From assembly GCF_002831625.1 (NCBI RefSeq), contig NZ_CP025116.1, forward strand, positions 1,936,501-2,000,500: a stretch of DNA of 64,000 nucleotides. The letters are read 5' to 3'. Below are positions 5,025 to 62,511 of this stretch, piece after piece (within the stretch, counting starts at the first letter, position 1; each line of letters starts with the position of its first letter). The notes under the pieces were generated by a model. That model was given only the letters and a program-made list of their open reading frames with translations, did no database searches and was not told the DNA's origin. The stretch is from Nonlabens sp. MB-3u-79 (GTDB lineage Bacteria > Bacteroidota > Bacteroidia > Flavobacteriales > Flavobacteriaceae). Both the position numbers and the translations under genes were made by a program.

Positions 5025-5040
5025 ACTTTCGCGAAAGCGA
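5025..5040. repeat. Palindromic element, intergenic copy 1
   Basis: ACTTTCGCGAAAGCGA, with a 12-bp perfect palindromic core (5026-5037). It lies in the predicted 5' untranslated region of the persulfide dioxygenase gene. A half copy (AGAAAGCGAA) follows at 5051-5060. Confidence 0.85.
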
Positions 5041-5070
5041 AACACAACACAGAAAGCGAAAGGAATACTA

Positions 5071-5114
5071 TAAAAGTAGTGCATAGAAGCCTTTTTATCA
5101 GTAACTAATGTTAC
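5071..5114 (-). promoter_or_regulatory. Promoter and Crp/Fnr-type operator of the persulfide dioxygenase gene
   Basis: The perfect inverted repeat GTAAC-TAAT-GTTAC (5101-5114) overlaps the stop codon of tauE (5111-5113). On the minus strand, 22 nt further on, is TACTTTTA (5078-5071), one base off the TAnnTTTG -7 consensus. The operator centre is 36.5 bp from the downstream end of the -7 box, identical to the tauE and tolC promoters. There is no -33 TTG. This is the geometry of a class II activator site. The expected start of transcription is near 5065, giving a leader of about 75 nt. Confidence 0.7.
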
Positions 5115-5911
5115 ATAATGAGCTCTTTATAAATAATATAGAGGCCCATGATGAGGACAAACCAGCCAAAAGCTTTTTTTAGCTTTTTACCGTCAATAAA
5201 TTTATTGAGCCAAATGCCAATAAATATTCCAACAATGGAAATTGCGGTAAAGGAGAGTAAAAAAGTCCAGTCTATTTCTAGGTTTTTCACATCACCTAAA
5301 AAGCCTATAAGTGATTTAATAGCGATGATAAATAGGGAAGTAGCTACTGCTTTTTTCATAGGTAATTTAGCGAGTAACACCAAGGCAGGAATGATTAAAA
5401 AACCACCGCCAGCACCTATAACTCCCGTAATGACCCCTACTACAAGACCTTCTATAATGATGAGTGGGTAATTATAGACAATACTACTTTCTTCCTCAGG
5501 CTCTTTGCGTCTGTTGCGTATCATCGATACAGATGCCAGCAGCATGATGAATGCAAAAAATAGCATTATAGCAATATTTTTGGTGACCAGAAAGTCGTCC
5601 CATGTAAAAAGTTGTTCAGGAATCGCAGGAATTAAATAAGCTCTAGTGAGGTATACCGCTATAAATGCGGGAACTGCAAAAATGATAGCTGTTTTAAAGT
5701 CTACCATTCCTTTCATCATATTTTTAACAGCGCCTACTAGTGATGTAGCTCCTACTACAAAAAGAGAATAGGCGGTGGCTAGCACAGGATTAAATGCTAG
5801 GGCGTAAACTAAAATAGGAACGGTAAGTATGGAACCACCACCACCTATGAGCCCCAAAACAAGTCCTATAAAAAGAGCTCCTATATATCCAAGTATTTCG
5901 ATGCTTTCCAT
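5111..5911 (-). CDS. TauE/SafE family sulfite/sulfur-compound exporter
   Basis: 266 residues with about eight transmembrane segments in two homologous halves, each containing the glycine-rich motif of the family (GLVLGLIGGGGSILTVP near the N terminus and GVITGVIGAGGGFLIIPAL in the middle). TauE/SafE proteins move sulfite, sulfoacetate or related anions across the inner membrane. In Staphylococcus aureus a TauE gene lies beside the cst persulfide genes, and the same partnership is seen here. It lies between the Crp/Fnr gene and the dioxygenase gene, and has its own operator-controlled promoter. Confidence 0.92.
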   Translation of the reverse strand: MESIEILGYIGALFIGLVLGLIGGGGSILTVPILVYALAFNPVLATAYSLFVVGATSLVGAVKNMMKGMVDFKTAIIFAVPAFIAVYLTRAYLIPAIPEQLFTWDDFLVTKNIAIMLFFAFIMLLASVSMIRNRRKEPEEESSIVYNYPLIIIEGLVVGVITGVIGAGGGFLIIPALVLLAKLPMKKAVATSLFIIAIKSLIGFLGDVKNLEIDWTFLLSFTAISIVGIFIGIWLNKFIDGKKLKKAFGWFVLIMGLYIIYKELIM

Positions 5912-5928
5912 TAAAGAAGTTTATTGTT

Positions 5929-5972
5929 TAAAGGTAATGTCTATAAAAGCAATGCTTCGTAACAAAAGTTAC
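5929..5972 (-). promoter_or_regulatory. Promoter and Crp/Fnr-type operator of tauE
   Basis: The perfect inverted repeat GTAAC-AAAA-GTTAC (5959-5972) overlaps the stop codon of the Crp/Fnr gene (5969-5971). On the minus strand, 22 nt further on, is TACCTTTA (5936-5929), one base off the -7 consensus. The distance is the same, to the base, as at 5071-5114. No -33 TTG sits at the right distance, so the promoter probably needs the activator. The likely protein is the Crp/Fnr regulator encoded directly upstream. Confidence 0.72.
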
Positions 5973-7007: not shown

Positions 7008-7035
7008 TTGGAACATTTTAAATTTGTTATATTTG
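7008..7035 (+). promoter_or_regulatory. Promoter of the metal efflux operon
   Basis: TTG (7008-7010), 17 bp spacer, then TATATTTG (7028-7035): a full match to the Bacteroidota consensus. The start codon GTG of the next gene begins only 4 nt after the -7 box, so transcription should begin at or next to the start codon and the mRNA should be leaderless. Confidence 0.75.
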
Positions 7036-7039
7036 TTGA

Positions 7040-7438: not shown

Positions 7439-7514
7439 ATTATTCTGGATTATTTTTAAGATCCCTAACATCCTCGTGTTATGGTTATATTCATGTGTAT
7501 TATATTATGACAAA

Positions 7515-10500
7515 ATGCTTTCACATATTATTAATTTTAGTTTAAAGAACAAGTTTGTTGTTCTTTTATTTACCGCCTTTATTGTAGGATTTGGGCTGTA
7601 TTCTTTATCACAAATTCCTATAGGTGCCGTGCCAGATGTTACCAACAATCAGGTACAGGTCATCACCACCTCCCGCAATCTTTCTACTCAGGATATGGAG
7701 CAATTCATTACTTATCCTGTAGAACTGGAAATGGCAAACTTACCTGGAGTAAAGGAAATCCGTTCGGTTTCTAAGTTTGGTTTATCAGTGGTTACCATTG
7801 TCTTTGAAGACGATATGGGAACCTATTTACCCAGACAACTCATAGCCGAAAAAATCAAATCGGCTTCAGATAAAATACCTGAAGGTTTTGGAACACCAGA
7901 AATGGGGCCTATCACCACAGGCTTGGGCGAGATATATCAATATATTCTTGATGTAGAACCAGAATTTAAAGATCAATATACCGCCGAAGATCTGAGGACT
8001 ATTCAAGATTGGATCGTAAAACGCCAACTCTCAGGGATACCAGGGGTGGTTGAGGTGAACACTTGGGGCGGACTTTTAAAACAGTACGAAGTCGCTATAG
8101 ATACTGAAAAGTTAAATGCTATGGAGATCTCAGCACGAGATGTTTTTACGGCTTTGGAGATGAATAATAGTGTTTCTGGTGGTGGGTATATTGAAAAGGT
8201 AAATCAAGCTTTTTTTATTCGAGGTGAAGGACTTGTTTCCTCCTTAGAAGACATAAGGAACATCGTTGTGATCAATAAAAACGGCATTCCTATCTATATT
8301 AAAGATGTGGCATCTGTAGGTTTTGGAAATGCCATACGCTTTGGAGCGATTACAGGAAATGGCGAAGGTGAGAAAGTCCTAGGTCAAGTAATGATGCTTA
8401 AGGACGCTAATTCTAAAAAGGTGATCGACGCTGTAAAAGAACGCGTGGCTTCTATTTCAAAATCATTACCAGAAGGTGTTTATATCAATCCCTTTCTAGA
8501 TCGAAGCGAACTTATAGCAAAGACCACTTTTACCGTCAGTGAAAACCTAATCTTAGGTTGTCTGATTGTGATTTTTGTGGTGGTATTACTCTTAGGTAAC
8601 TTCCGTTCGGGACTGGTGGTAGCTTCAGTTATTCCTTTGTGTTTGCTTTTTGCCTTGTCTTTAATGTATGTTTTTGGGGTAGATGCTAACTTGATGAGTC
8701 TGGGCGCTATTGACTTTGGGATCATTATAGATGGCGCGGTGATTATTGTTGAGTTTATAGCTTTTGAAATCACTAGAAAGAAGGCTGAGATTAACGCTTT
8801 CGCGAAAGCGGGACAACAAGAATTAAAAGATAAAATCACATTTAATGGCGCGTCCAAAATGATGAACTCTGCCATTTTTGGACAGCTGATCATTCTGATC
8901 GTATTCATTCCTATTTTATCGTTGGATGGCGTAGAAGGAAAAATGTTCAAGCCTATGGCTTTGACCTTTAGTTTTGCATTGATAGGGGCGATGATTCTTT
9001 GTTTTACTTATGTTCCTGTTGTAGCGTCTATATTCTTAAAACCATCTACGGCAACAGATAAAAATATATCTGTTAGACTAATGAAGTGGCTCAATAAAGT
9101 ATATGAGCCTGTGATCCATTGGGCTTTACAAAGTAAAAAAATAGTAATGGGAATTGCGATAGGTTTATTAGCCTTCTCCATCTTTCTGTATTCGACTATG
9201 GGAGGGGAGTTTGTTCCCACATTAGACGAAGGTGATTTTGTGATTCAGCCCATATTGAAAACAGGAACATCATTGAGCAAAACCATAGAAATAACTACAG
9301 AAATAGAACAGATACTCATCAAACAATTTCCTGAGGTCAAGCAAGTAGTCACCCGTATAGGCGCTGCTGAGGTTCCCACAGACCCTATGTCTATGGAAGA
9401 AAGTGATGTGATTATTGTATTAGAACCTAAATCAGAATGGACCTCTGCTTCTTCAAAAGATGAGTTGGCAGATAAGTTTAAAGAGGCCCTTGCCGTGATT
9501 CCTGGAATGGAAGTAGAATTTACACAGCCTATTGAGATGCGCTTCAATGAATTGATTACAGGAGTGCGAGCAGATATTGCTGTAAAGATTTTTGGTGAAG
9601 ATTTAGAAATTCTTGCTAAAAAAGGAAGTGAAATAGGTGCCTTAATTGAAAATGTGCCAGGTGCAGCAGATGTTTCTGTGGAGAAAGTAGCTGGGTTACC
9701 AGAAATGAGTGTGCAATACGATCGTGCTAAAATCGCCAGATACGGACTTAATATTCAAGAGCTGAATGATATGATATCTATGGGCTTTGCTGGAAAAATA
9801 GCAGGAAGTGTTTTTGAAGGTGAAAAGCGATTTGATCTTGTAGTACGACTTGATAAAAACAAACGTCAAGATATAGACAATCTTAAAAACTTGTATGTAG
9901 ATGTGCCGGCTGGTGGTAAAATACCCTTGAGTGAACTGGCAGATATCAGTTACCAAAAAGGAGCTGCTAAAATATCTAGAGATAATACCAGACGTAGAAT
10001 AGTAGTAGGGATCAATGTGCGTAATCGGGACCTGCAATCTGTAGTTGACGACATACAAAAACTCATCAATGAAAACGTAAAGTTGCCCGTGGGGTATTCT
10101 ATCACTTACGGTGGCCAATTTGAAAACCTTCAAAGTGCTAAATCACGATTAATGATTGCTGTACCTATAGCGCTTGTCTTAATATTTGTGCTTTTATACT
10201 TTGCGTTCAAATCAGTGAAAGAGGCTTTGATGATCTACTCGGCAATACCACTTGCCGCTGTAGGAGGTATTTTATTATTATGGATAAGAGATTTGCCATT
10301 TAGTATCTCTGCTGGAGTTGGTTTTATCGCCTTATTTGGTATTGCGGTATTGAATGGAATTGTACTGATAGAGCATTTTAAAGAATTACAAAAAGAAGGG
10401 TTTGAGAGTATGGAAGCTTTAATAAAACAAGGGACTAAAGATAGGCTTAGAGCAGTATTGTTAACCGCTTCTGCAGCTGCATTAGGATTTTTGCCAATGG

Positions 10501-11859: not shown

Positions 11860-13005
11860 ATGAAACGTCATATATATACCATAATAACTTTTAGTCTAAC
11901 TCTTGCCCTTTACAGTTGTGGCGAGCAAAGTAACCCATCTAACCTAGCAGAAGTCGAAAGCACTGCTGCTATTGATAACCGCATTCAGATCACGCAAGCG
12001 CAATTTGAACAAAGCAACATGATCTTAGGAGTCCTAGAAGAAAAATCATTTCCTAATATTGTTTCTGTCAACGGTATGATTGATGTACCTCCAGAAAATA
12101 GAGCCGTAGTGAACGCTACTATGGGCGGCTATATTAAAACAACCTCTTTATTAGTAGGAGATGTAGTGCGCAAAGGCCAAGTACTCGTAACCTTAGAAAA
12201 TCCAGAGTTTATAAGGTTACAGCAAGAGTATATGGAAGTGAATGAACAACTTTCCTATCTCAAATCGGAGTATGATAGACAAGTACGTATGAAGGCTGAA
12301 AATATTACTTCTCAAAAAAGCTATTTAAAAGCAGAAAGTGAGTACAAAACTGCCGTAGCAAAGCATACAGGCTTAGATAAACAGCTGAGAATGCTGAATA
12401 TCTTACCATCGAGTGTGCGTGCTGGAAACATCAGTTCTGTGGTGAGTATTTATGCGCCTATTTCAGGAAGTATTACTAAGGTGAATATTTCAAAAGGGAG
12501 TTATCTTTCACCAGCCACTGAAATTTTAGAAATCATCGATACAGACCATATTCACTTAGAGCTTTCTGTCTTTGAGAAGGATATCCTGAAGGTAAAAAAA
12601 GGACAAGAAATTGACTTTAAAATTCCTGAAGCATCATCAGATACCTATAAAGCAGAAGTGCATTTAGTAGGTACATCCATTGAAGAAAACAGAACGATTA
12701 AAGTACACGGTCATCTAGATAATGAAGAGAAAACCCATTTTTTAACGGGTATGTTTATAGATGCAAGTATTATTACAGATTCCGCTTTCGCGAAAGCGGT
12801 ACCTAATCAAGCTGTAGTAGAAGTAGATGGCGTGTTTTATGTTTTAGTCTTAGATCAAAAGGAAGGCGACACCTATTATTTCAATCAAGAAGAAGTTGAA
12901 GTAAAAAGCAGTTATAATGGTTTTACGGTAATAGAAAATAAGAGTAGCTTTGATTCAGACACAAAGTTCTTGACCCAAGGCGCTTTTAATTTAATAGGAG
13001 ATTAA
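11860..13005 (+). CDS. czcB: CzcB/CusB-type periplasmic adaptor lipoprotein
   Basis: 381 residues with a lipoprotein signal (LTLALYSCGE, Cys20). It shows the HlyD-type order: beta-barrel start (VNGMIDVPPENRAVVNATMGGYI), first lipoyl half with GDVVRKGQVLVTLENPEF, a coiled-coil hairpin around residues 110-170, second lipoyl half (VSIYAPISGSITKVNISKGSYL), then the barrel and membrane-proximal domains. It links the inner-membrane RND pump to the outer-membrane channel. The gene starts 10 nt after czcA and ends 2 nt before the VIT1-like gene, so the three are one operon. Confidence 0.93.
   Translation: MKRHIYTIITFSLTLALYSCGEQSNPSNLAEVESTAAIDNRIQITQAQFEQSNMILGVLEEKSFPNIVSVNGMIDVPPENRAVVNATMGGYIKTTSLLVGDVVRKGQVLVTLENPEFIRLQQEYMEVNEQLSYLKSEYDRQVRMKAENITSQKSYLKAESEYKTAVAKHTGLDKQLRMLNILPSSVRAGNISSVVSIYAPISGSITKVNISKGSYLSPATEILEIIDTDHIHLELSVFEKDILKVKKGQEIDFKIPEASSDTYKAEVHLVGTSIEENRTIKVHGHLDNEEKTHFLTGMFIDASIITDSAFAKAVPNQAVVEVDGVFYVLVLDQKEGDTYYFNQEEVEVKSSYNGFTVIENKSSFDSDTKFLTQGAFNLIGD
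12783..12798. repeat. Palindromic element, copy 3
   Basis: CGCTTTCGCGAAAGCG inside the czcB-like gene, read as AFAKA; flanking C and G extend the palindrome to 18 bp. Confidence 0.9.
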
Positions 13006-16194: not shown

Positions 16195-17352
16195 TTAGTT
16201 TTTTTTACGACTTTTTCCGATCGCATTTTCTAAATCAGCGATAAGAATTTCTGTTTCTTCAATACCTACAGAAAACCTTAATAGGCCATCAGAAATACCT
16301 TGTTCTTCTCTTTCTTGTTCAGTCAGCAGGCTGTGTGAAGTGGTGCTAGGGGCAAGAATAGTACTTTCTACACCTGCAAGACTTAAAGCAGGCATAATCA
16401 CTTCTAGTTCTTCTAAGAAAGCAGTGTAATTGATGTGTTTTTTTAGTTCAAAGGACATCATACCACCGTAGGCATTCATTTGCTTTTTAGCGAGTTCGTG
16501 TTGTGGATGCGATTTTAATCCTGGATAATTTACTTTTTCAATATCTGGATGTTGATCTAAGAATTTAGCTAGTTTGTGAGCATTTTTAGACTGTCTTTTT
16601 ACTCTTAAAGCTAGCGTCTTAATACTTCTTTCTAATAGCCATACCGTTTGATCACTTAAGCTACCACCATAATTTTTGGCAGTTTTCCAGAGTCTATCCA
16701 TATGTTCTTGGCTACAACTAACGGTGCCCGCGCAAATATCGCTGTGACCGCCTAAATATTTAGTTGCACTGTGTATAACGATATCAATTCCAAAATCGGC
16801 AGGAGTCTGGTTGATAGGTGAGGCAAATGTATTGTCTATAGCGGTTGTTAAGGAGTTCGCTTTCGCGAAAGCGGAAACCAATTCCATATCCGTAACCTCT
16901 AATAAAGGGTTGCTGGGAGTTTCTATATACACCATTTTGGTGTTGGGTTTCAAACTTGCTTCCAGACTTTCTTGATCTACATGCTCGATCATGGTGTATT
17001 GAATACCTACATTTTCAAACTCTGCTGCTGCAAAATGGGCAGTACCACCGTAAATAGCTCGTTGCATGATCACGTGATCTCCAGTTTTAAGAAAAGCCAT
17101 AAATACCGCGCTAATGGCTGCCATTCCACTACCGAATATCATTCCAGCTTCTGTATGTTCTAAAGCTGCCATCTTTTTACCAAGAGCAACTTGATTAGGC
17201 GTATTAAAATATCGCGGATATAAATTGGTGCCTTCACCTCTGTAATCATAAGCAGTGGATGTGTAAATAGGAGCCGTCGCTCCACCATAAACCTCATCTT
17301 TTAACTGTCCTGCATGTACACAAACATAGTTGGGATTTCTATTTTCTTTCAT
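16195..17352 (-). CDS. Cys/Met metabolism PLP-dependent enzyme (cystathionine gamma-lyase/synthase type)
   Basis: 385 residues, the usual length of the family. VHAGQ near the start, YPRYFNTPNQ, and SATKYLGGHSD, whose Lys binds pyridoxal phosphate, place it among cystathionine gamma-synthase, cystathionine gamma-lyase and methionine gamma-lyase; motif reading alone cannot choose. The end (GLLRFSVGIEETEILIADLENAI) is complete. It forms an operon with bshB1, 1 nt downstream, which favours a role in making cysteine for bacillithiol. It contains one copy of the palindromic element. Confidence 0.9.
   Translation of the reverse strand: MKENRNPNYVCVHAGQLKDEVYGGATAPIYTSTAYDYRGEGTNLYPRYFNTPNQVALGKKMAALEHTEAGMIFGSGMAAISAVFMAFLKTGDHVIMQRAIYGGTAHFAAAEFENVGIQYTMIEHVDQESLEASLKPNTKMVYIETPSNPLLEVTDMELVSAFAKANSLTTAIDNTFASPINQTPADFGIDIVIHSATKYLGGHSDICAGTVSCSQEHMDRLWKTAKNYGGSLSDQTVWLLERSIKTLALRVKRQSKNAHKLAKFLDQHPDIEKVNYPGLKSHPQHELAKKQMNAYGGMMSFELKKHINYTAFLEELEVIMPALSLAGVESTILAPSTTSHSLLTEQEREEQGISDGLLRFSVGIEETEILIADLENAIGKSRKKN
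16858..16873. repeat. Palindromic element, copy 4
   Basis: CGCTTTCGCGAAAGCG in the PLP-enzyme gene, read on the minus strand as AFAKA (VSAFAKANS). Confidence 0.9.
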
Positions 17353-17468
17353 GTTGCCGAAATTAGTAAGATTGTAATGATTAAAAGTAAATTATATGTG
17401 AAATATAACACTTACAAATGCTGGTCTTAATTTCCGTTTATTGTTCAGGAGTTAATTATCTTCACGAT

Positions 17469-18719
17469 ATGAGCAAGCTTTTTACAAATATTAAGGAATT
17501 AATTCAAGTTAGGGAACAAACAAATCAACCATTACGAGGCAAGCAAATGGATGAATTACCATCGATCAAAAACGCTTATTTGTGGCTGGAAGATGGTTTG
17601 ATTAAAGATTACGGCAGTATGGATAATTACCATCCTCATCCCGCCGAGGAGGTTTATGACTGCACAGGTATGATTATCACGCCAGGTTATGTAGATAGTC
17701 ATACCCATCTGGTTTTTGCCGGTACTCGTGAGAAAGAGTTTGAGGATAGGATTCACGGACTTTCTTATGAAGAAATCGCTGCAAGAGGTGGTGGTATATT
17801 AAATAGTGCTGCTGCTTTAGAAAAAATGACGGAAGAGGAGCTCTTTGAACAAGCGCGTTGTCGACTGGATCAAGTAGTTGCTCAAGGGACTACAGCCATT
17901 GAAATAAAAAGTGGCTATGGACTCAGTGTAGAAAGCGAATTAAAAATACTTAGAGTAGTGTCTCGCTTGCGCGAAAGCGGTACAAATAGCCATCATAAAA
18001 TCCCAATAAAGTCGACTTTTCTAGGAGCACATGCTCTTCCAGTGAACTACAAGGAGGATCGGGAAGCCTATATCAACCTCATTATTGATGAGATGTTACC
18101 TAAAATAGCAGAAGAGCATCTTGCAGATTATATAGATGTTTTTTGTGAGCAAAATTATTTTACAGTAAAGGAGATGCTGCGTATTATAGAAGCAGGAAGT
18201 GCTTATGGCCTTAAAGCAAAAGTGCATGTGAATCAGTTCAACTCTATCGGGTCGATAGAAGCTGCAGTTCGAGCAGGAGCGGTAAGTGTAGATCATCTCG
18301 AAGTTATGGAGGCTTCAGATTTTACTGCCCTTTCCGGTTCAACAACCATTGCAACGGCCTTACCTAGTTGTTCTTTCTTTCTGGGACTTGATTATGCGCC
18401 AGTGAATGAAATGATAGATCGGGATATTGCCGTGTCTTTGGCGAGTGACTACAATCCGGGAAGCACGCCTTCTGGTAATTTGAATTTTGTTTTTTCTTTA
18501 GCTTGTATAAAAATGAAGATGACACCACAACGCGCTTTTAATGCCCTTACGATAAATGCTGCTCATGCACTAGAACTTGAAAAGGAGCTGGGAAGTATCA
18601 CTATAGGTAAAAAAGCAAATCTTATGATTTTTAAAAATATAGAGAGTATTGCTGCCATACCATATAACTTTGGTCAAGTTGTTATCGATAAGGTAATTGT
18701 TAATGGTCAATTTATTTAG
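17469..18719 (+). CDS. hutI: Imidazolonepropionase
   Basis: 416 residues from the ATG at 17469 (MSKLFTNIKELIQ); the frame is open further up but those residues are not conserved. HutI opens the imidazolone ring to N-formimino-L-glutamate, the third step of histidine breakdown. Visible marks: GYVDSHTHLVFAGTREKEF with the metal-binding HxH (about residue 78), RIHGLSYEEIAARGGGI, FLGAHALP, and ALPSCSFFLGLDYAP. A short insertion of the palindromic element variant (SRLRESGTNSHH) precedes KSTFLGAH. hutG follows after 6 nt. The first two enzymes, hutH and hutU, are not in the window. Confidence 0.94.
   Translation: MSKLFTNIKELIQVREQTNQPLRGKQMDELPSIKNAYLWLEDGLIKDYGSMDNYHPHPAEEVYDCTGMIITPGYVDSHTHLVFAGTREKEFEDRIHGLSYEEIAARGGGILNSAAALEKMTEEELFEQARCRLDQVVAQGTTAIEIKSGYGLSVESELKILRVVSRLRESGTNSHHKIPIKSTFLGAHALPVNYKEDREAYINLIIDEMLPKIAEEHLADYIDVFCEQNYFTVKEMLRIIEAGSAYGLKAKVHVNQFNSIGSIEAAVRAGAVSVDHLEVMEASDFTALSGSTTIATALPSCSFFLGLDYAPVNEMIDRDIAVSLASDYNPGSTPSGNLNFVFSLACIKMKMTPQRAFNALTINAAHALELEKELGSITIGKKANLMIFKNIESIAAIPYNFGQVVIDKVIVNGQFI
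17964..17979. repeat. Palindromic element, variant copy 5
   Basis: CGCTTGCGCGAAAGCG in hutI, one base from the consensus; read as RLRES. Confidence 0.75.
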
Positions 18720-20055: not shown

Positions 20056-21873
20056 TTACTGATTTACAAACTCCGCATCTGTTAAGGTTTTCATGAAATT
20101 AATAAGATCTGTTTTTTCTTGGTCTGTTAAGTTTAAAGGATCTGTTGGTAGTGTTTGGTATTCTTGATTTGTGATCCCTATCCCGTAGCCACCACCTAAA
20201 TTGTAAAACTCAATAACTTCTTCAAGAGTTTTATAAACACCGTTGTGCATGTATGGGCTGGTTAAAGCTATGTTTCTTATGCTAGGTGTTTTAAAGAAGT
20301 GTTTGCGATTCTCTGTTTTGTATATTTCAAACCTACCTAGATCTGTATCAATCCTTGCATTATTTGTTACGGCTGCTTCTGGCACTCCTAAATGCTCCAT
20401 TTCAGTTTCCATAAAATCTGGTGGTACAGTTCCATTAAAAACAGGTGCAAAATGGCATGTAGCACATTTTGCTTTACCGTTAAAAAGGTTAAAACCATTT
20501 ATTTCTGAAGCAGTAAGTGTGTTGATCTCATTTCTGATATTTTGATCCCATTTAGAATTCCAATAGTTGAGACTACGCACATAATCAGCAATAGCATCCC
20601 TAATACTGTTTTGATGAATAGGAGTTGCATAAGCTATTTCAAACTCTTTTATATAAGAAGAGTCTTGGTCTATTAGTGAAGCAAAACTTTTAAGATCAGA
20701 ATGAAACTCCTGTGAGTTGTTAATTACTGAAACGATCTGACCTTCTAGACTACCAGATCTTTTATCATAGAAAAAGCCTTGTTGATAAGCGCTATATGTT
20801 AGACTAGGACTATTGCGGTTCAATCCGTTGGACTTTGTTAACCCATCAGTAAACGCCAGGTTACTTTTATGGCAAGTTGCACAACTTACTGTTTGAGAAG
20901 AAGAAAGACTTTTGTCATGGAACAGTCTTTTTCCTAATTGGATTTTATCCTCACTAAGCGGCGTTACTTTCCTACCTGCAAAAAAATCTAATGACAAAGC
21001 TTCTTTTGAGAACAAGCTGCTTGCATTATTATCTATTGCCATTTGCAAAGGAAAGCTTACTTGCCAATCTTTCGCTGTCTCTACCCATAACACCAGCATG
21101 GGGTCTATGTGTGATTTTATAAACTCGTACCTATTAAAATTTTCAAAATCACCCTCTGTTAGGTAGGATTTTGCTCTGCTAAACTTGTCCTGCCATAAAG
21201 CTTTCAATGGCTCCTTTTTAAAGTTGTGATCGTAGAGGTTTAAGATTTGTTCCGCTTTCGCGAAAGCGGTAACCGCATCCATCAAACTGCTTTCTAAAAC
21301 GGGAGAGTCAAAACCAGTAACACCAGTCGTCGCGGTGCGTATTAATTGTTTGCGTACGATCCAAAGTACGTGATAGGGTTTTAAATAAGCTACATCTGTA
21401 TTTCTTAAAAGCACTTGTAATCTAGAGTGAATTTTACCAGCTGTTTTATGAACAGCATCTATATCTGGCGCATCGCTGAATATATTTTCTTCCAATGTTT
21501 GAAAGCTGCTGGGTTCATTTATCTTGATATCGGTCAAGTCTTCTTCTTCTACTTTAAGAAGGTTAGGTGCATTGAGGAAACTGTAGTTATTCTGGTCTTG
21601 AAAGGAAAGCACTGGTTCTACTTTTTTAAATTGTGTTCGTGCTTTTTTAAAATAGAACTTTAAACTATCCACTTCAGAAGTACGCGTTAACGCACCGACA
21701 TAATCAGCACAACTCTGAAGATCTACTAGGTACATATTCTGTAAAGCGATGGAGGGCTGCAGATCTATTTTTTCGACATATTCTTCAGGACTGCTTTTAC
21801 AAGAGATCAAAAACAAAAGAAGACCTGTAAGGGTACAGATCTTCTTTATTATATTTAAAATAGGCAAGTTCAT
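20056..21873 (-). CDS. Di-haem cytochrome c peroxidase family lipoprotein with an extra N-terminal domain
   Basis: 605 residues; the C-terminal 300 are a complete di-haem peroxidase/MauG-type unit with haem motifs CATCH at 331-335 and 470-474, and the typical ending TPSIRNIALTSPYMHNGVYKTLEEV. A lipoprotein signal (FLISCKSS, Cys25) puts it in the periplasm. Residues 40-300 are helical and not part of the usual enzyme; AYLKPYHVLWIVRKQL and RTQFKKVEP remind me of imelysin-like proteins, but this is a weak impression. It starts 1 nt after the PhoX-like gene and the two are co-translated. Peroxide reduction or a MauG-like oxidation are both possible. Confidence 0.88.
   Translation of the reverse strand: MNLPILNIIKKICTLTGLLLFLISCKSSPEEYVEKIDLQPSIALQNMYLVDLQSCADYVGALTRTSEVDSLKFYFKKARTQFKKVEPVLSFQDQNNYSFLNAPNLLKVEEEDLTDIKINEPSSFQTLEENIFSDAPDIDAVHKTAGKIHSRLQVLLRNTDVAYLKPYHVLWIVRKQLIRTATTGVTGFDSPVLESSLMDAVTAFAKAEQILNLYDHNFKKEPLKALWQDKFSRAKSYLTEGDFENFNRYEFIKSHIDPMLVLWVETAKDWQVSFPLQMAIDNNASSLFSKEALSLDFFAGRKVTPLSEDKIQLGKRLFHDKSLSSSQTVSCATCHKSNLAFTDGLTKSNGLNRNSPSLTYSAYQQGFFYDKRSGSLEGQIVSVINNSQEFHSDLKSFASLIDQDSSYIKEFEIAYATPIHQNSIRDAIADYVRSLNYWNSKWDQNIRNEINTLTASEINGFNLFNGKAKCATCHFAPVFNGTVPPDFMETEMEHLGVPEAAVTNNARIDTDLGRFEIYKTENRKHFFKTPSIRNIALTSPYMHNGVYKTLEEVIEFYNLGGGYGIGITNQEYQTLPTDPLNLTDQEKTDLINFMKTLTDAEFVNQ
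21253..21268. repeat. Palindromic element, copy 6
   Basis: CGCTTTCGCGAAAGCG in the peroxidase gene, read on the minus strand as AFAKA (VTAFAKAEQ). Confidence 0.9.
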
Positions 21874-27453: not shown

Positions 27454-27528
27454 GTTACTAGGAATTATTTTATTTATGTAAGGTACTAACGTTCACGATT
27501 ATCGTCAGAGGTTAATTTTTACGAGTTG

Positions 27529-43317: not shown

Positions 43318-44118
43318 CTACTTCATGATCCATTCTTCCTTAAAAAGCAATGCTTTAGTAAGATGACCATATATTAACGGAAAGGTTGTTTTAAAATCAG
43401 CATTTGATTCAAAAAAGTATTCTGAAAGCACCGCCATGAATTCATACTGATTTGTAAAGGCATAATCTCTAAAGAACTGTGTTTGATCCAGCTTGCTACG
43501 CACGTCTGGTTTCATCAATTCCCGGAGAATTTTATTGGTGTATTTTTTGAATCTTACAGCATCAATATCATTACTACGGTCACTTTCAAAATGCATGACA
43601 TGGGTAAATTCATGTATGCCTAAGTGAAGATTATCATTAGTTATATCCATTCCTTCCTTAAAATCATACCAGGAGATCGCTAGCACTTTAGCTAGTGGAT
43701 TAAATTCGCCTTTATGCAATACCTGATTAGTAGGGCTCATAAAAGCCTCTGGAAATAACAAAATCGTATTCAGCATAGGATACAAATAGTTGCGGCGTCC
43801 AAAACTCAATTGGCAAGCAACACAAGATATCAATACCACTTGATGGTCAGTCACAGTACCTTGATACCTATTCCTAAAATCTTTATCTGCAATAAAGGCA
43901 GCTACTCGATGCTCAAACTGCTTTTTATTTTTAAGGGGAAGTTGCTCGTAGAAGGGGTATGTTTCTAGAACTCGCTTTCGCGAAAGCGGCAACCTGCGAT
44001 AACTTAAGGCTTGTCGGTACCATAAAAAATCACGCTTTCTTTGAATACCTCGCAATATGATGTGGGCAAAAATGGATAAAAATCCAAAGCCTACCACAGC
44101 AAAGGCGTATGGTGCCAT
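43318..44118 (-). CDS. MtfA-like zinc peptidase (M90 family)
   Basis: 266 residues. A transmembrane helix (about residues 5-23) is followed by the MtfA/M90 domain: FLWYRQALSYRRLP, FEHRVAAFIADKDF, and the zinc motif HEFTHVMHFE at 169-178. In E. coli MtfA is a cytosolic peptidase linked to glucose uptake control; the Bacteroidota proteins carry a membrane anchor. It is 40 nt downstream of the Bax-inhibitor-like gene and probably on the same transcript. LSRK at 45-48 comes from a palindromic element. Confidence 0.9.
   Translation of the reverse strand: MAPYAFAVVGFGFLSIFAHIILRGIQRKRDFLWYRQALSYRRLPLSRKRVLETYPFYEQLPLKNKKQFEHRVAAFIADKDFRNRYQGTVTDHQVVLISCVACQLSFGRRNYLYPMLNTILLFPEAFMSPTNQVLHKGEFNPLAKVLAISWYDFKEGMDITNDNLHLGIHEFTHVMHFESDRSNDIDAVRFKKYTNKILRELMKPDVRSKLDQTQFFRDYAFTNQYEFMAVLSEYFFESNADFKTTFPLIYGHLTKALLFKEEWIMK
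43973..43988. repeat. Palindromic element, copy 10
   Basis: CGCTTTCGCGAAAGCG in the MtfA-like gene, read on the minus strand as LSRK (LPLSRKRVL). Confidence 0.9.
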
Positions 44119-47631: not shown

Positions 47632-48549
47632 TTAGAGCTTTATTTGAGGGTATTCGGAAGTTAATTGTTTTTTCATTTTTGCTAATTGTTGTTTGTGTAA
47701 TTCTATGTCGGTTGCTTTATGATGCGATAGTTTTCGATACTTCTCTACTGCTTTTTGTTGAGTTAAGGTGTTGATGTTGATGGCGCTTTCGCGAAAGCGA
47801 GACCATATAAAATCAATACCCAATTCATTGAGATGTATCATGTCACGAGCATAGAATCGATAGTCCCTCAACTCGTCCATCGCAATTTCATAAGCAGGAA
47901 AATAATGGGCGAAAGTGCGCTCCACATGTGATTGAATAGCTTCATGTAGTCTGGCTTTGCTGCGTTGATTTTTAATAAATCCGTCCTTTATATGACGCAC
48001 CGGTGATAGGGTATAGGTAATGGTGATTTCTGTATTCCAGTTGGTAACCAATTCATAGATGCGTTGCAAATCATCATGGATGGTATCAATAGAAAGCAAC
48101 TCTTTGCTGAATAATTGCTGAGGTTGTTTGTGACAGTTGGCAACAATCATATCCTTCTCCACATGCCTATAAACCCAAGAAGTTCCTAAGGTGATGAATA
48201 AATGAGAAGCTTTTTTTAATGATTCTCTTAGGTGTTGTAAAGTAGTGTTGAGGTGGAATACTAACTTTTTAGGATCCATAGAATTCAAATCAGAATGAAC
48301 GAGATAGGAAAAATGATCGGTACAATCTACTATAGTAAAAGCTTGATTTTTAATGGCGCGTTCCACAAGAATTCTCAGACTCGTAGAGTTAAATACAATC
48401 CCAAAAGGATTCACCGTGACATCAAAACCGTAGTAAGCCAATTTAGAACCTATGTTTTCTGTAAAACAGCTGCCTAGTAAAACTACTTTCGAATGGTGAT
48501 CTATAAGAACGGGCAAATTAGAAAGAGGAACTGTTGTAGTAAGTTTCAT
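47632..48549 (-). CDS. GSCFA domain protein
   Basis: 305 residues. VVLLGSCFTENIGSKL gives the family its name, and NPFGIVFN, FITLGTSWVYRH, ITYTLSPVRHIKDG and YRFYARDMIHLNELG are the other blocks. The family belongs to the SGNH hydrolase type, with Ser of GSCF and a late Asp/His pair; its substrate is unknown. No signal peptide. In flavobacteria it commonly lies beside alaS, as here. A palindromic element encodes WSRFRESAI. Confidence 0.93.
   Translation of the reverse strand: MKLTTTVPLSNLPVLIDHHSKVVLLGSCFTENIGSKLAYYGFDVTVNPFGIVFNSTSLRILVERAIKNQAFTIVDCTDHFSYLVHSDLNSMDPKKLVFHLNTTLQHLRESLKKASHLFITLGTSWVYRHVEKDMIVANCHKQPQQLFSKELLSIDTIHDDLQRIYELVTNWNTEITITYTLSPVRHIKDGFIKNQRSKARLHEAIQSHVERTFAHYFPAYEIAMDELRDYRFYARDMIHLNELGIDFIWSRFRESAININTLTQQKAVEKYRKLSHHKATDIELHKQQLAKMKKQLTSEYPQIKL
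47784..47799. repeat. Palindromic element, copy 11
   Basis: CGCTTTCGCGAAAGCG in the GSCFA gene, read on the minus strand as RFRES. Confidence 0.9.
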
Positions 48550-51589: not shown

Positions 51590-51609
51590 TTCGCTTTCGC
51601 GAAAGCGAA
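51590..51609. repeat. Palindromic element, intergenic copy 12
   Basis: A 20-bp perfect palindrome, TTCGCTTTCGCGAAAGCGAA, between the divergent alaS and M23 peptidase genes; the longest copy in the window. A TATTTTTG sequence (51556-51563) upstream could put it in the leader of the peptidase mRNA. Confidence 0.9.
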
Positions 51610-54484: not shown

Positions 54485-55494
54485 TGAAGAATATACTATA
54501 CATAGGCAATCAACTGGCTCAAAAAGGTAAGACGGCAACGACTATAGATAGTCTAGGTCCTTTACTGGAAAAAGAAGGTTATCAATTGCGTTATGCCTCT
54601 TCTGTTTCAAATATAGCCGGGCGTATGGTTGACATGATGCGCAAGACTTTCAAGAGCAGAAAATGGGCAGACGTTGTTTTAATTGACACCTATAGTACTA
54701 AAAATTTTTGGTTTGCGATTGTTATCGCACGTATGTGTATATCATTTAATATGAAGTACATTCCTATTCTTCACGGTGGGAATTTGCCTGTTCGATTAGA
54801 TAAAAACCCAAAGGTCACGAGAGCTTTTCTTCACAATGCTCATGCTGTTGTAAGTCCTGGTGATTATTTGCGTGCTGCTTTCGCGAAAGCTGGCTACCAC
54901 AACATCACTAAGATCAATAACTTTATCGAGATAGAAAACTACCCCTTTCTAGAACGATCTGTCTTAGAGCCAAAACTTCTTTGGGTAAGATCATTTGCAG
55001 AGATTTACAATCCGCAAATGGCAGTTCGTGTGCTTCACTTACTTAAAGAGAAATATCCTAAAGCCAGTCTGACCATGGTTGGTCCAGAAAAAGATGGGGC
55101 GCTAGAAGATAGTAAGTTACTGGCTCAAGAATTACAACTAGAAGTGAATTTTACTGGGTTGCTTTCTAAAAAGCAGTGGATAGAAAGAAGCAAAGATCAT
55201 TCTATTTTTATCAATACGACCCACTTTGATAACCTTCCTGTAAGTTTAATCGAAGCGATGGCATTAGGTTTACCGGTGGTTTCAACAGATGTAGGAGGTG
55301 TCCCATACCTAATACAGCACAACGTACATGGCAAATTAGTTCCAGATGCTGATGTAGTAGAAATGGTAGAAAATATTCATCATTTAATACAGCATCCTAA
55401 AGATGTTTTGACTATAATTACAAAAGCCAGAGAAAGATCCCTGAACTACTCTTGGAAGGAAGTAAGCCAGCGATGGAACTCCTTACTTGACTGA
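54484..55494 (+). CDS. Glycosyltransferase family 4 (GT-B fold)
   Basis: 336 residues. The C-terminal GT1-type domain shows LWVRSFAEIYNPQMAVRVLHLLKEKYP, LTMVGPEKDG, and the nucleotide-sugar motif FINTTHFDNLPVSLIEAMALGLPVVSTDVGG. The N-terminal acceptor domain has PILHGGNLP. Cytoplasmic; adds a sugar to a lipid-linked intermediate. It is coupled to the upstream polymerase gene by a 1-nt overlap. A palindromic element encodes AAFAKAGYH. Confidence 0.92.
   Translation: MKNILYIGNQLAQKGKTATTIDSLGPLLEKEGYQLRYASSVSNIAGRMVDMMRKTFKSRKWADVVLIDTYSTKNFWFAIVIARMCISFNMKYIPILHGGNLPVRLDKNPKVTRAFLHNAHAVVSPGDYLRAAFAKAGYHNITKINNFIEIENYPFLERSVLEPKLLWVRSFAEIYNPQMAVRVLHLLKEKYPKASLTMVGPEKDGALEDSKLLAQELQLEVNFTGLLSKKQWIERSKDHSIFINTTHFDNLPVSLIEAMALGLPVVSTDVGGVPYLIQHNVHGKLVPDADVVEMVENIHHLIQHPKDVLTIITKARERSLNYSWKEVSQRWNSLLD
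54877..54890. repeat. Palindromic element, copy 13
   Basis: GCTTTCGCGAAAGC in the glycosyltransferase gene, read as AFAKA. Confidence 0.88.
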
Positions 55495-57008: not shown

Positions 57009-58634
57009 TTACTTCCGCTTCATTTTACCACGTCTAAAAACGCCGAAAAGCAATACAAACAATCCCATAAGACTGGCTATTCTTGCTATATAGTCCCCAT
57101 GAGTAGTGTAAAAAGTGACTTTAGTTTTAGGATATACAGTTCCTTTAATAGCTCCTTCTGTTCCGTATTCTAGGGATTCTAAGATGTTCCCACGCTCATC
57201 TATAATAGCACTTATTCCGGTATTGGCACTTCGAGCAATCCACCTTCTGTTTTCTATAGCTCGTAGTCTGGCAAGGCTTAAATGTTGTTGATGACCTTGG
57301 GTGTTTCCCCACCAGGCATCATTAGTAATGATCGCTAAGAATTGGGCTCCATTTTTCACATAATCAGTGACATATTCTCCGTAAACCGATTCATAACAAA
57401 TTATTGGAGCCACTTTAGCTTGGTTTTTAATTTGAAAAACAGAACGTTCTTTTTGAGTTGTTTTAGTAGCTACCGTACCGCCTAAATCCAGCATCGCATC
57501 TCCTAAAATAGGCTGAAGAATATTTTTATAAGGAAAATTTTCAACGCCTACTACTAATTTAGACTTGTGATACACTTGTAACGAGTCCGTAGCAGCTAAA
57601 AACATAGCGCTATTATAGTCATTGTAAAGAGTTCTACCGTCGCGAGCTACATTAGTTTGTGTGGTAATTCTAGTGGTATCTGTAAAAATCTCTGCAATGG
57701 AAATACCTCCTAAATAAGACACATTTGGATAATCGTACAGCGCTGCTCTAATCTGATTCACAGAACGATCGTATGCTAATTGGTCCAGGTCAGACAGTCT
57801 TACATTATCTGCAAGAACTGTTTCTGGTGTAATAATAAGATCTGTGAATTGATCCATTTCAGGTTGTGCCAAGTTCATAATGATCTTTACGATGCTGTCG
57901 TTTGTGGTATAATATTTCTGGCTATACGGATCTATGTTGGGCTGTATGATAACTACATTAGTTCCTTCCCCTTTTTGAAAGGATAGCATATCAAAAACTA
58001 ATATTTGCGAAATAATAATGGGGGTGATGATCAAACTTAGAAGCACAGCAACTCGTTTGATGATAAATTTGCGTTTAGAAATAAGTTCGCTTTCGCGAAA
58101 GCTTAACACACTTAAAAAAATAAATATATTGACCAGCCATATCCATAAAGAACCACCAAATGTCCCTGTGTATTCATACCATTGAATCCAAGACGTCATC
58201 TCGCTGAATCCATTCCCCAAGTTGAGCCATGGCCAGGAGAAATCCCATTCCAAATGCATGCGCTCAAAGCTGATCCACAAACAAGCGAGAAATGTCAAAG
58301 CGGCTCCTTGTGTAGCTTTGCGAGCCAATAAATGATAGCCCAAAAATACCAAACTCATCAAAGCAGCATTAGCTATAACGGCAAACCACATTCCAAAAGG
58401 TGTTGAAAAATACAACCAGTAAGTAGTGGCTATATTCCATATAAAAAAAGTGAGATAGGAGTGAAGGAATACTTTTCCTGCTTTACGCTTTGTAGAAGAA
58501 TTTCTAATGCGTTTTTCAGAAAGGAGTAAGGGGACAAAAGCTATGAGTAATAGTCCAGCAAAGCCATAAGTAGGCCAGCCCAGCCACAATAGAATTGCTG
58601 ATAATAAGGCTAGTAAAATACTGGTGAATTTCAT
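57009..58634 (-). CDS. lnt: Apolipoprotein N-acyltransferase
   Basis: 541 residues with eight membrane helices and a periplasmic nitrilase domain. The catalytic triad is visible: Glu in IITPETVL (about 270), Lys in HKSKLVVG (about 357) and Cys in PIICYESVYGEY (about 412). It adds the third acyl chain to lipoproteins, of which this window encodes many. SWPWLNLGNG is typical of the family. A palindromic element encodes SFRESE in a linker. Confidence 0.95.
   Translation of the reverse strand: MKFTSILLALLSAILLWLGWPTYGFAGLLLIAFVPLLLSEKRIRNSSTKRKAGKVFLHSYLTFFIWNIATTYWLYFSTPFGMWFAVIANAALMSLVFLGYHLLARKATQGAALTFLACLWISFERMHLEWDFSWPWLNLGNGFSEMTSWIQWYEYTGTFGGSLWIWLVNIFIFLSVLSFRESELISKRKFIIKRVAVLLSLIITPIIISQILVFDMLSFQKGEGTNVVIIQPNIDPYSQKYYTTNDSIVKIIMNLAQPEMDQFTDLIITPETVLADNVRLSDLDQLAYDRSVNQIRAALYDYPNVSYLGGISIAEIFTDTTRITTQTNVARDGRTLYNDYNSAMFLAATDSLQVYHKSKLVVGVENFPYKNILQPILGDAMLDLGGTVATKTTQKERSVFQIKNQAKVAPIICYESVYGEYVTDYVKNGAQFLAIITNDAWWGNTQGHQQHLSLARLRAIENRRWIARSANTGISAIIDERGNILESLEYGTEGAIKGTVYPKTKVTFYTTHGDYIARIASLMGLFVLLFGVFRRGKMKRK
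58088..58102. repeat. Palindromic element, copy 14
   Basis: CGCTTTCGCGAAAGC in lnt, read on the minus strand as FRES. Confidence 0.88.
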
Positions 58635-60653: not shown

Positions 60654-60668
60654 TTTTTTCAGTTTAAC

Positions 60669-61415
60669 TTACTCAAAAATCTTCTTCTTTCTCAGTTCAA
60701 AATTCTGTCCTAAATAAACCCGTCGTACCACTTCATCTTCAGAGAGTTCTTCTGGTGAACCGTGCTTTAAGATTTTGCCTTCAAACATGAGATAAGTACG
60801 GTCGGTAATAGCAAGTGTTTCTTGTACGTTATGATCGGTAATCAGAATACCTATATTTTTTTTGGTTAGTTGTGCTACAATTCTTTGAATATCTTCTACG
60901 GCCACTGGATCTACCCCTGCAAAAGGCTCATCCAGTAATATAAAAGTAGGGTCTGTAGCCAGTGCGCGAGCGATTTCTGTACGCCTACGTTCTCCACCAC
61001 TTAATAAATCACCGTTTCTATGGCGTCGGTCTTGTAAACTGAATTCTTCCAACAACTTCTCACAACGTTCTTTTTGTTCTTTTTTAGATAGCTTGGTCAA
61101 TTGTAAAACGCCTAATATGTTTTCTTCTACAGTGAGTTTTCTAAAGATAGAAGCCTCCTGTGCGAGATAACCTATACCAATCTGTGCACGTTTGTACATG
61201 GGGTATTGAGTGATTTTTGTATCATCCAGCCATACATCACCTCCTGTCGGTTTTACAAGCCCCACAGTCATATAGAAAGAAGTGGTTTTACCGGCACCAT
61301 TTGGTCCTAGAAGACCAACGATCTCCCCCTGATTCACTTCGTATGAAACGCCTTTTACAACTGGGCGACCTTTATAGGATTTCTGTAAATTATCAGCTCT
61401 TAATTTCTTTCGCAT
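60669..61415 (-). CDS. lptB: LPS export ABC transporter ATP-binding protein
   Basis: 248 residues. Walker [11 protein letters not shown]-loop [18 protein letters not shown], signature [17 protein letters not shown], Walker [14 protein letters not shown], and switch His in [10 protein letters not shown]. The [18 protein letters not shown] stretch is characteristic of LptB, which powers lipopolysaccharide export with LptF and LptG. Cytoplasmic face of the inner membrane. The start codon lies 4 nt after a -7 box, predicting a leaderless mRNA. Confidence 0.95.
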
Positions 61416-61419
61416 GGAA

Positions 61420-61427
61420 CAAATTTA
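61420..61427 (-). promoter_or_regulatory. -7 box placed 4 nt before lptB
   Basis: TAAATTTG on the minus strand, then TTCC, then the lptB ATG. This predicts a transcript beginning at the start codon. Confidence 0.65.
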
Positions 61428-61705
61428 ATGGTTTTGAATTCAATTTTGCACTAGTAATGACATCTTAGATTGGGCAATTGCATTTGCAATTTGAATTTAA
61501 TCGAATAAAAGGCTCTTTTCTCTTTTTTACTTCGGTAATTTCAGTGCAAGTATTTCCGTATAATAAGAATCATAGGTTAAGCTGTGATTGATTTTTATGC
61601 TTCACAGAAACAAAAAAAAACTCGTTTTCTTTTCCAATAAATTCAAGCTTCAACTGGTATAATGATTAAATTGCGTGGTATTATAGAAATTCAATTACTC
61701 AATTT
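61428..61705. other. Intergenic region between lptB and the PAP2 operon
   Basis: About 280 bp between divergent genes. It contains a ten-A run (61612-61621 region) and no clear promoter consensus for the plus-strand operon, nor any hairpin or frame worth calling. Confidence 0.5.
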
Positions 61706-61933
61706 ATGGAACTTCCTAGATTTCTTATGGGCGATAACGTTCATTATCCTGAAGATATTTTTGTCATTCACTTAGAATATCCGCGTTTTATAATCAATTT
61801 AAAAGATGATGAAGTGGAGTTTCTAGAAGAAGTTACAAAAGAAGATGTGGAAGAACTGGAAGAAGAGACTAAAAATTTGATAGAAGAAGCCAGTCGTTTT
61901 TACGATGAGCAAATGAAATTATACGAGCAATAA
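61706..61933 (+). CDS. Small acidic protein upstream of the PAP2 gene
   Basis: 75 residues: MELPRFLMGDNVHYPEDIF, then a very acidic helical part (EEVTKEDVEELEEETKN). No signal peptide or membrane segment. I do not recognise a named family, but the gene is translationally coupled to the PAP2 phosphatase gene by a TAATG overlap, and the sequence is too ordered to be chance. Possibly a cytoplasmic partner of the phosphatase. Confidence 0.8.
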   Translation: MELPRFLMGDNVHYPEDIFVIHLEYPRFIINLKDDEVEFLEEVTKEDVEELEEETKNLIEEASRFYDEQMKLYEQ

Positions 61934-62511
61934 TGGAAAACATTAAAGAATTAGACTGGGACGCCACCTTATTTCTTAACGATTGGGGAGGGGAGACGAT
62001 AGATCTGTTCTTTAATATCATCACGCATAAATTTTATGCGATCCCCTTGTATTTATTTGTCCTTTTTATTCTTTATAGAAAACTGGGTATTCGCAATTTA
62101 GCAATCGCATTGATTGCTATAGCTTTATTAATTGCTTGTAGCGATCAACTAGCAAATCTTTTTAAAAATGGTTTTGAACGTTTGAGACCTTTTCGAGAGC
62201 CAGCTTTAGAAGGATTGATTTCCAAAGTCGGTAAAAGTGGTGGTACTTATGGTTTTTATAGTGGTCATGCGAGTAGTGCTGTTGCCCTTGCTACTTTCCT
62301 TTGGTTTATTTTGAGAAGAAAGCATAAAGGCCTTGCTGTGATTATGATTGTTTGGGCTGTTCTGGTTGCTTATAGTCGTGTTTACCTGGGCGTTCACTAT
62401 CTAGGTGATGTGCTCATGGGAGCGTTTATAGGAACTTTATTAGGTTTGTTTTTTGCTTGGGTGTACGCTTTCGCGAAAGCGAGATACGGAGTCTCCACCA
62501 CCATAAATTAA
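61933..62511 (+). CDS. PAP2 family lipid phosphatase
   Basis: 192 residues with about six membrane helices. The three PAP2 motifs are FKNGFERLRPF (KxxxxxxRP), GFYSGHASSAVALATF (SGH) and SRVYLGVHYLGDVLMG (SRxxxxxHxxxD). Such enzymes dephosphorylate undecaprenyl pyrophosphate, phosphatidic acid or lipid A in the periplasm. It is coupled to the small acidic protein gene upstream, and the OsmC gene follows after 6 nt. Near its end a palindromic element encodes YAFAKARYG. Confidence 0.93.
   Translation: MENIKELDWDATLFLNDWGGETIDLFFNIITHKFYAIPLYLFVLFILYRKLGIRNLAIALIAIALLIACSDQLANLFKNGFERLRPFREPALEGLISKVGKSGGTYGFYSGHASSAVALATFLWFILRRKHKGLAVIMIVWAVLVAYSRVYLGVHYLGDVLMGAFIGTLLGLFFAWVYAFAKARYGVSTTIN
62466..62481. 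repeat. Palindromic element, copy 15
   Basis: CGCTTTCGCGAAAGCG near the end of the PAP2 gene, read as AFAKA. Confidence 0.9.

Follow-up and report, generated by a model that had tools for sequence, protein, structure and literature searches.

A 14-bp palindrome of Nonlabens and two other flavobacterial genera as a candidate DNA uptake sequence

The best-known uptake sequences belong to two families of Proteobacteria, the Pasteurellaceae and the Neisseriaceae. The uptake signal sequences (USS) of Pasteurellaceae (AAGTGCGGT and ACAAGCGGT) occur as hundreds of perfect copies with fewer one-off ones, have conserved flanks and clade dialects, and are borne by temperate phages of matching dialect but are absent from a T7-like phage. 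Both they and the DNA uptake sequences (DUS) of Neisseriaceae are enriched outside genes yet common inside them, and are spaced more regularly than random. DUS, for which ComP is the receptor, show genus dialects (PMC3630211) that help to spot integrative elements (PMC7371117), and a passage of PMC1626085 gives a strong consensus as a hallmark of USS and DUS. Here we analyzed a 14-bp palindrome, GCTTTCGCGAAAGC, that recurs in a 64-kb stretch of the Nonlabens sp. MB-3u-79 chromosome (NZ_CP025116.1, positions 1,936,501 to 2,000,500; hereafter the window). The palindrome shares these features, including its usefulness for spotting integrative elements. It differs from the USS, which have a directional 9-bp core with one-sided flanks, in being a palindromic 14-mer with symmetric flanks in another phylum, and from the DUS in sequence, symmetry and machinery. 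We propose that it is probably a palindromic, pilus-independent DNA uptake (self-recognition) sequence kept by transformation drive. To our knowledge, a palindromic uptake sequence would be the first for its phylum and the first palindrome of its kind.

Abundance, strictness and placement of the palindrome

Copies with up to two mismatches were counted across the window, and 15 places were found (13 exact and two with one mismatch, at 5025 and 17965), compared with a mean of 0.14 and a maximum of 2 in 100 shuffles. In a blind k-mer scan of the window, sub-words of the palindrome ranked first. The refutation named in the original prediction did not occur: copies are not limited to the window, and the MB-3u-79 genome (one contig, 3,184,776 bp) contains 563 exact copies, while the reversed word, used as a control, is absent. 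Blastn matches of this genome at 70–84% to named Nonlabens loci agree with its placement in that genus. Among 299 genomes of the family, this one included, 61 had at least one copy and only five had hundreds (three of the same genus, G190 and G206); the others had 0–19. All 23 Nonlabens genomes carried 288–857 copies, all 18 genomes of the G206 genus, which appears to be Dokdonia, carried 369–905, and the one genome of the G190 genus carried 408; these three are referred to below as the site-bearing genera. Intermediate exact-copy counts were observed in G076 (16), G287 (19) and G051 (17). Of 395 evenly drawn genomes of the phylum, 22 had a copy, none had more than six except MB-3u-79, and the maximum outside the family was one. 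A blind scan for 8-, 10- and 12-mers in seven genera other than the site-bearing ones (50–70 kb each) revealed no comparable motif in five of them and probably a local repeat in G023. In G078 (stretches L345–L347 and L306), TTCTGAAA, TTCAGAAA and a weak CTTCGGAA/TTCCGAAGAA family were over-represented, possibly as the motif of another genus. The 14-mer was not found in the open-access literature searched, where no title or abstract start reported such a motif in these genera.

The core is strict. In 464 kb of the MB-3u-79 genome, copies with 0, 1 and 2 mismatches numbered 85, 13 and 2, whereas 48 shuffled control palindromes averaged 0, 0 and 0.8. The corresponding counts in smaller samples were 26, 0 and 0 for two other Nonlabens genomes (G242 and G010) and 16, 0 and 1 for G319. 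When the 14-mers were masked, TCGCGA remained at background level (40 vs 37.8 expected) and CGCG fell below expectation (356 vs 462), with small excesses of TTCGCGAA (6 vs 2.0 expected) and GCGAAA (89 vs 65). Across its 14 bp the word is recognized almost entirely or not at all, and its symmetric flanks differ in dialect between genera. Both 5' flanks favored C at -1 and T at -4, -7, -10 and -13 and avoided C as far as about -18, whether the copies were coding or intergenic; in 54 intergenic copies of MB-3u-79, T occupied positions -4, -7, -10 and -13 in 77, 66, 74 and 63%, respectively. The 3-base phase in the 5' flanks was a moderate signal (p 0.01–0.03 for G/T in each of four sets and 0.03–0.22 for T alone). 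This T phase with C avoidance was observed in the 5' flank of each strand in copies of MB-3u-79 and of the G206 genus, intergenic ones included. The dialects lie in the flanks: at position -2, Nonlabens has C or T, whereas G206 and G319 have mostly A, with T at -3 in 85–94%; the core is identical. In 16 tests of left-right complementarity, two gave p <0.03 (MB-3u-79 at -7, 0.004; the G206 genus at -1, 0.025) and the rest did not. A DNA hairpin of the folded strand was rejected because opposite flank bases showed no consistent covariation, and the site therefore resembles duplex DNA recognized through two half-sites.

Even spacing, a property raised in the original prediction, was found. The first 100 sites had a mean spacing of 5,068 bp and a coefficient of variation of 0.69, compared with 0.99 for random placement, and none of 20,000 simulations was as low; gaps below 2 kb numbered 11 against 32 expected. 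Copies were also enriched outside open reading frames (ORFs): 62 of 85 lay in crude ORFs, which cover 87.3% of the sequence, and 23 lay in the remaining 12.7%. In 1.024 Mb of sampled MB-3u-79 sequence, 166 sites occurred at 1–8 per 20 kb without an origin or terminus trend. The exception was a stretch with one site in 100 kb, from 2,580,001 to 2,680,000. The hole, at about 2.57–2.69 Mb, looks like an integron cassette array. This integron-like array near the replication terminus (about 2,571,800–2,690,000) consists of small genes, mostly on the same strand, over about 100 kb with a GC content of about 0.33 and has attC-like repeats between genes in both 20-kb stretches checked. A tyrosine recombinase at its left end (locus L038:11834-12988) matched TIGR02249 at 168 bits, below the cut-off of 265. 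Salinibacter ruber is the complete Bacteroidetes integron named in the text on IntegronFinder 2.0 (PMC9024848). Two further site gaps of about 19 kb hold ordinary genes (rho and pyruvate-dehydrogenase-type), so the gaps are not only foreign DNA.

The palindrome could not be assigned to known chromosome-organizing sites. The protein-binding sites parS, Noc and matS resemble it in length and in being palindromic. At 0.96 Mb, beside the skew switch, lie an exact canonical parS and, 1.9 kb from it, a copy with one mismatch, and no further 16-base parS match within two mismatches occurred in the sampled sequence. The origin site and the palindrome are therefore different things, and within the sampled sequence the palindrome, unlike parS, Noc sites and matS, favors neither origin nor terminus. 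One canonical ParB was present in each of 26 genomes tested, with an extra ParB in 1 of 12 site-bearing genomes and 3 of 14 others. A parS/Noc site, first suspected from clustered copies in low-copy relatives, was rejected since no ParB-family reader was tied to the palindrome; a matS-type terminus site was rejected on the flat sampled density and a hole near the terminus. A SlmA- or Noc-like terminus depletion was likewise rejected, since the hole resembles an integron cassette array and not a terminus rule. The chromosome-organizing or replication site listed among the roles in the original prediction is disfavored by the canonical parS at the origin, the lack of a ParB paralogue that tracks the site and a sampled density that is flat save for the integron-like array.

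Conservation in relatives, metal-efflux islands and phages

Positions are kept within Nonlabens. The loci of G242 and G010 were fetched through alaS synteny and not through the motif, and 10 of the 11 window sites with an aligned orthologue there were intact, while the flanks were 72–86% identical. Three more MB-3u-79 sites, aligned to loci retrieved through the motif itself, were also intact. As a background, 5,014 of 97,881 14-base windows (5.1%) were identical across these alignments as a whole, and 15.9% in the set of the window, G242 and G010. The motif stood on one side only in six rows representing four distinct places, five of them (three places) without a gap at the core; these are few cases, and the cross-genus alignments are often gapped and poor. 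No shared position was found in comparisons with G206 (3 vs 7 one-sided rows), G190 (1 vs 9) or G051 with G076 (0 vs 6), in which several rows may represent one site.

Palindrome-bearing metal-efflux islands (loci L003–L020) were observed in G101, G078, G087, G201, G215, G012 and G111, whose genera otherwise nearly lack the motif. In the site clusters of three low-copy relatives (G101, G078 and G087), seven proteins were metal-efflux or related (OEP, AcrB-type, CusA-like, CusB-like and P-type ATPase). A pair of copies separated by 933 bp is shared by five genomes and lies inside a gene for 405 amino acids, an outer-membrane efflux protein in the one scanned. G101 and G215 have a second ParB of 598–616 amino acids some 13–32 kb from the clustered copies. 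The clusters appear to be DNA that arrived from site-bearing genera, and the islands look like transfer footprints. For 18 island loci in these seven genomes, both copies were kept in 41 of 93 aligned pairs, with a core identity of 0.85 and a flank identity of 0.77; in the Nonlabens comparison set both were kept in 28 of 30 pairs, with identities of 0.97 and 0.83. Each island pair had the motif in at least one member, and the pairs are not independent and include paralogues. Island cores were still better kept than island flanks. The stronger decay of the motif in islands of non-site genera suggests that a genus-specific factor in the site-bearing genera maintains the word. To judge from these sequence comparisons, the word is maintained as DNA by a factor at the level of the genus. 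The earlier proposal that the element is selected (or, as we would add, driven) as DNA and tolerated in three reading frames is supported.

A scan of viral contigs revealed at least 120 stretches with the palindrome, mostly single hits, about half of them at a GC content near 0.6–0.7. Seven phage records, selected for several hits, held 24 exact copies in 188 kb (0.0005 expected), and five single-hit records held one each. Four of the seven records were scanned. One had terminase, portal, capsid, tape-measure and integrase genes, another terminase and a MuA-type transposase-family gene, the third integrase and primase, and the fourth tape-measure; integration genes (integrase or transposase) were thus present in three of four. 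Two new relatives with 84–88% terminase identity had sites, four at 51–60% had none in 48 kb, and both copies were kept in 5 of 7 pairs from related phage records. The Nonlabens phages P12024S and P12024L, which have no annotated integrase, had no site even at two mismatches. When the phage collection was searched by terminase, only these two (two records each) matched at 99% identity or more, and the next match was at 44%. For calibration, phages of hosts with proven USS were examined: temperate HP1, F108 and PHL101 carried 17, 6 and 6 cognate USS and none of the other dialect (about 0.2 expected), and the T7-like PHB02 carried no USS. Low counts of a 9-mer can be due to chance, however, as P12024S and P12024L each contain one USS word twice. 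The agreement with proven uptake sequences in this split between phages, a feature that had not been planned for, is the strongest single argument for reading the palindrome as an uptake sequence.

Competence genes, the uptake reading and its alternatives

An uptake sequence would jointly explain the strictness, dialects, evenness, enrichment in non-coding DNA, kept positions, decay elsewhere and phage split. Under this model, a DNA receptor of competent Nonlabens, Dokdonia (if the name is correct) and the third genus would prefer double-stranded DNA with GCTTTCGCGAAAGC and its flanks, and DNA with the motif would enter cells and recombine at a higher frequency. Single-base changes by which the motif arises or is repaired would then spread by molecular drive, and the outcome would be hundreds of near-perfect, spaced copies at positions fixed within a genus. 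Copies would accrue in long-resident DNA, such as core genes, integrative islands and prophages, and not in non-integrating phages or fast-moving integron cassettes. The model implies competent hosts, a preference of uptake for the motif, a reader that is dimeric or otherwise symmetric, and maintenance by drive and not by an intracellular function. Of the roles listed in the original prediction, a DNA-uptake signal is now best supported (by spacing, non-coding enrichment, strictness, kept positions and the phage split). More tentatively, and with a slight leaning to doubt, the palindrome might represent a third independent origin of bacterial DNA self-recognition, palindromic, symmetrically read and pilus-independent, in which one core word unites three genera as a gene-exchange club with dialects in the flanks only.

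A candidate machinery is known from Riemerella, then placed in the Flavobacteriaceae. Eight genes are described from a transposon screen for lost transformation, none of them a pilus gene. They encode a surface protein with DUF5689, a carboxypeptidase-regulatory-domain protein of the outer membrane, proteins of the HhH and DUF1343 types, and ComEC, DprA, ComF and RecA (PMC8459023). The DUF5689 and carboxypeptidase-regulatory-domain gene pair is also present in Nonlabens; Riemerella differs in that no motif was found there. Riemerella columbina favors its own DNA, for which the text of PMC7965970 reports no motif, only A-rich k-mers of up to 10 bp. DUF5689 was found in 29 of 30 genomes tested, including all 12 site-bearing ones. 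In MB-3u-79, a DUF5689/choice-of-anchor-J gene lies beside a carboxypeptidase-regulatory-domain gene for 961 amino acids (genome 1,253,273–1,257,607), and the pair adjoins an endonuclease/exonuclease/phosphatase gene; the domains of the pair are those of Riemerella proteins reported to be essential for natural transformation (PMC8459023). In 26 of 27 loci, the neighbor of the DUF5689 gene encodes about 850–970 amino acids, with the carboxypeptidase regulatory domain in the three scanned; its description as an outer-membrane barrel is taken from the Riemerella paper (PMC8459023). The DUF5689 surface protein (loci L287–L313) was strongly diversified, with at least two types in Nonlabens, and may be under diversifying selection, for example by phages; its larger neighbor follows the genus. 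A receptor swap among the site-bearing genera was rejected because these genera do not cluster in the tree of either operon protein; for the same reason, each protein is at most a candidate reader of the palindrome. The type II secretion/pilus ATPase family (T2SSE/PilB, PF00437) was over its cut-off in 4 of the 11 genomes with the site and in 7 of the remaining 42, and a link of type IV pili with the motif was rejected on this distribution.

Several points weigh against an uptake sequence. USS and DUS occur about once per kb, whereas the palindrome, at one per 5.7 kb in MB-3u-79, is several-fold sparser; their systems use type IV pili, whereas the MB-3u-79 genome has no PF00437 ATPase over the cut-off. 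Known uptake sequences are described as non-palindromic in a passage of PMC1939737, while this one is a perfect palindrome. The same passages cite Karlin, who took even USS spacing as a sign of replication, repair or compaction, which is arguable here too. Strictness is weaker in other genera (0, 1 and 2 mismatches: 34, 8 and 10 in G206; 15, 7 and 3 in G190). In the trees of both operon proteins the three site-bearing genera are not grouped, and DUF5689 splits Nonlabens into two types despite the same motif. The Riemerella-type operon is family-wide, which leaves the restriction of the motif to three genera unexplained. A search of open-access papers yielded no account of competence in Nonlabens or Dokdonia. 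The phage records were picked for multiple hits, and their hosts are unconfirmed, one terminase being found in none of 80 genomes. Finally, a nucleoid-binding or Chi-like role would yield many of the same patterns.

An intracellular sequence-specific protein, a symmetric dimer with about one site per 5 kb that organizes, loops or anchors the nucleoid and whose sites are kept by ordinary selection, would fit the perfect dyad symmetry, the flanks without consistent covariation, the even spacing, the positional conservation and the density that is flat with respect to origin and terminus in the sample. We nevertheless regard it as unlikely: a hole of about 100 kb is tolerated at the integron-like array, positions are unrelated between genera, no ParB/Noc paralogue tracks the site, and phage genomes carry copies that are mostly kept between relatives, though a chromosome scaffold needs none. 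Phages also bear on a Chi-like mark, in which the palindrome would halt a helicase-nuclease and trigger recombination while DNA lacking it is destroyed. P12024S and P12024L, which are annotated with ERF and YqaJ-type recombination genes, are site-free and some phage records are site-bearing, as expected of such a mark, but USS show the same split. The G/T-rich 5' flanks with their 3-base phase point the same way, G/T-rich composition being preferred by RecA. However, known Chi sites are of 5–8 bp, read on one strand and not palindromic, whereas here 14 bp and symmetric flanks are involved and a palindrome has no orientation. Helicase-nucleases are widespread, while the site is limited to three genera. 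Although its density is near that of Escherichia coli Chi (1008 in about 4.64 Mb, as quoted in PMC1939737), we consider a Chi-like mark improbable.

The cyanobacterial HIP1 (GCGATCGC) resembles the palindrome in being an abundant palindrome mostly in genes, and a HIP1-like mark tied to an orphan DNA methyltransferase would account for a palindromic, CG-containing word spread through genes, as described for HIP1 (PMC4390886); no passage on Bacteroidetes was found in the open-access text searched. The 8-bp HIP1 has inner methyltransferase words, whereas the present site is near all-or-none over 14 bp, occurs in three genera and keeps its positions. As the original prediction noted, the sequence is unlike HIP1. 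Its suggestion of a methylation mark is disfavored by the counts outside the 14-mer, where TCGCGA, CGCG and similar inner words are not over-represented and TTCGCGAA and GCGAAA show small excesses only. Methyltransferases are not known to read 14 bp plus flanks, and we give this explanation very little credence. A short mobile repeat of the repetitive extragenic palindromic or miniature inverted-repeat transposable element type, spreading by insertion, would produce many near-identical copies. It is scarcely credible, because identity is limited to the 14 bp with base preferences and no longer repeat unit in the flanks, copies are in frame within genes and keep their positions in the genus, and absent copies align without core gaps at three of four distinct places.

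Window copies and significance

The copies of the window are listed in Table 1. All 15 places of the original prediction are present; the mismatch it marked at 17964 (here 17965) is correct, while that at 5025 had gone unmarked. Its tally of thirteen copies in genes was reproduced on the window ORFs (AFAKA in six, FRES in four, one of them as RLRES owing to the mismatch, and LSRK in three), and the other two are intergenic. An L19 ribosomal protein leader of the Flavobacteria type (RF03130) was also observed at window 27487–27514 on the minus strand.

Table 1. Palindrome copies in the window. No strand is assigned to any copy; strands in brackets are those of the genes. Starts other than 5025, 30419 and 54877 correct earlier positions, which were off by 1–3 bases.
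Copy	Position	Translation	Context	Conservation
One mismatch, ACTTTCGCGAAAGC	5025..5038		intergenic	
Exact	8796..8809	AFAKA	within CusA/CzcA-family efflux gene 7476-11849	
Exact	12784..12797	AFAKA	within efflux adaptor gene 11860-13005	
Exact	16859..16872	AFAKA	trans-sulfuration-enzyme-like gene 16195-17352 (-), matches below equivalog cut-offs	kept in G242
One mismatch, GCTTGCGCGAAAGC	17965..17978	RLRES	within hutI 17418-18719	
Exact	21254..21267	AFAKA	ORF 20056-21873 (-)	kept in G242
Exact	30419..30432	LSRK	ORF 30006-32675, weak BlaR1 and SusC/RagA matches only	kept in G242, G010
Exact	34755..34768	FRES	ORF 34448-34885	kept in G242, G010
Exact	41391..41404	LSRK	ORF 41059-41478	kept in G242, G010
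Exact	43974..43987	LSRK	ORF 43318-44118 (-)	kept in G242, G010
Exact	47785..47798	FRES	ORF 47632-48549 (-)	kept in G242, G010
Exact	51593..51606		intergenic, between divergent alaS (48905-51526, -) and ORF 51678-52658 (+)	kept in G242, G010
Exact	54877..54890	AFAKA	ORF 54484-55494	not kept in G242 or G010 (ungapped, with other bases)
Exact	58089..58102	FRES	lnt 57009-58634 (-)	kept in G242, G010
Exact	62467..62480	AFAKA	phosphatase-like ORF 61933-62511, matches below cut-offs	kept in G242, G010

Uptake sequences as a kind are already known from USS and DUS; the palindromic form, the phylum and the absent pilus link are what would be new, if the uptake reading is true. If it fails, there would be some other factor that recognizes 14 bp several hundred times in each genome, a matter of no lesser interest. 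Copies in foreign genomes provide a ready footprint that marks DNA from site-bearing genera, as in the metal-efflux islands. If the palindrome is indeed an uptake sequence, self-tagging of DNA would evolve repeatedly, the motif would offer a handle on the specificity of the Riemerella-type machine, and marine flavobacteria would become testable for sex-like exchange.

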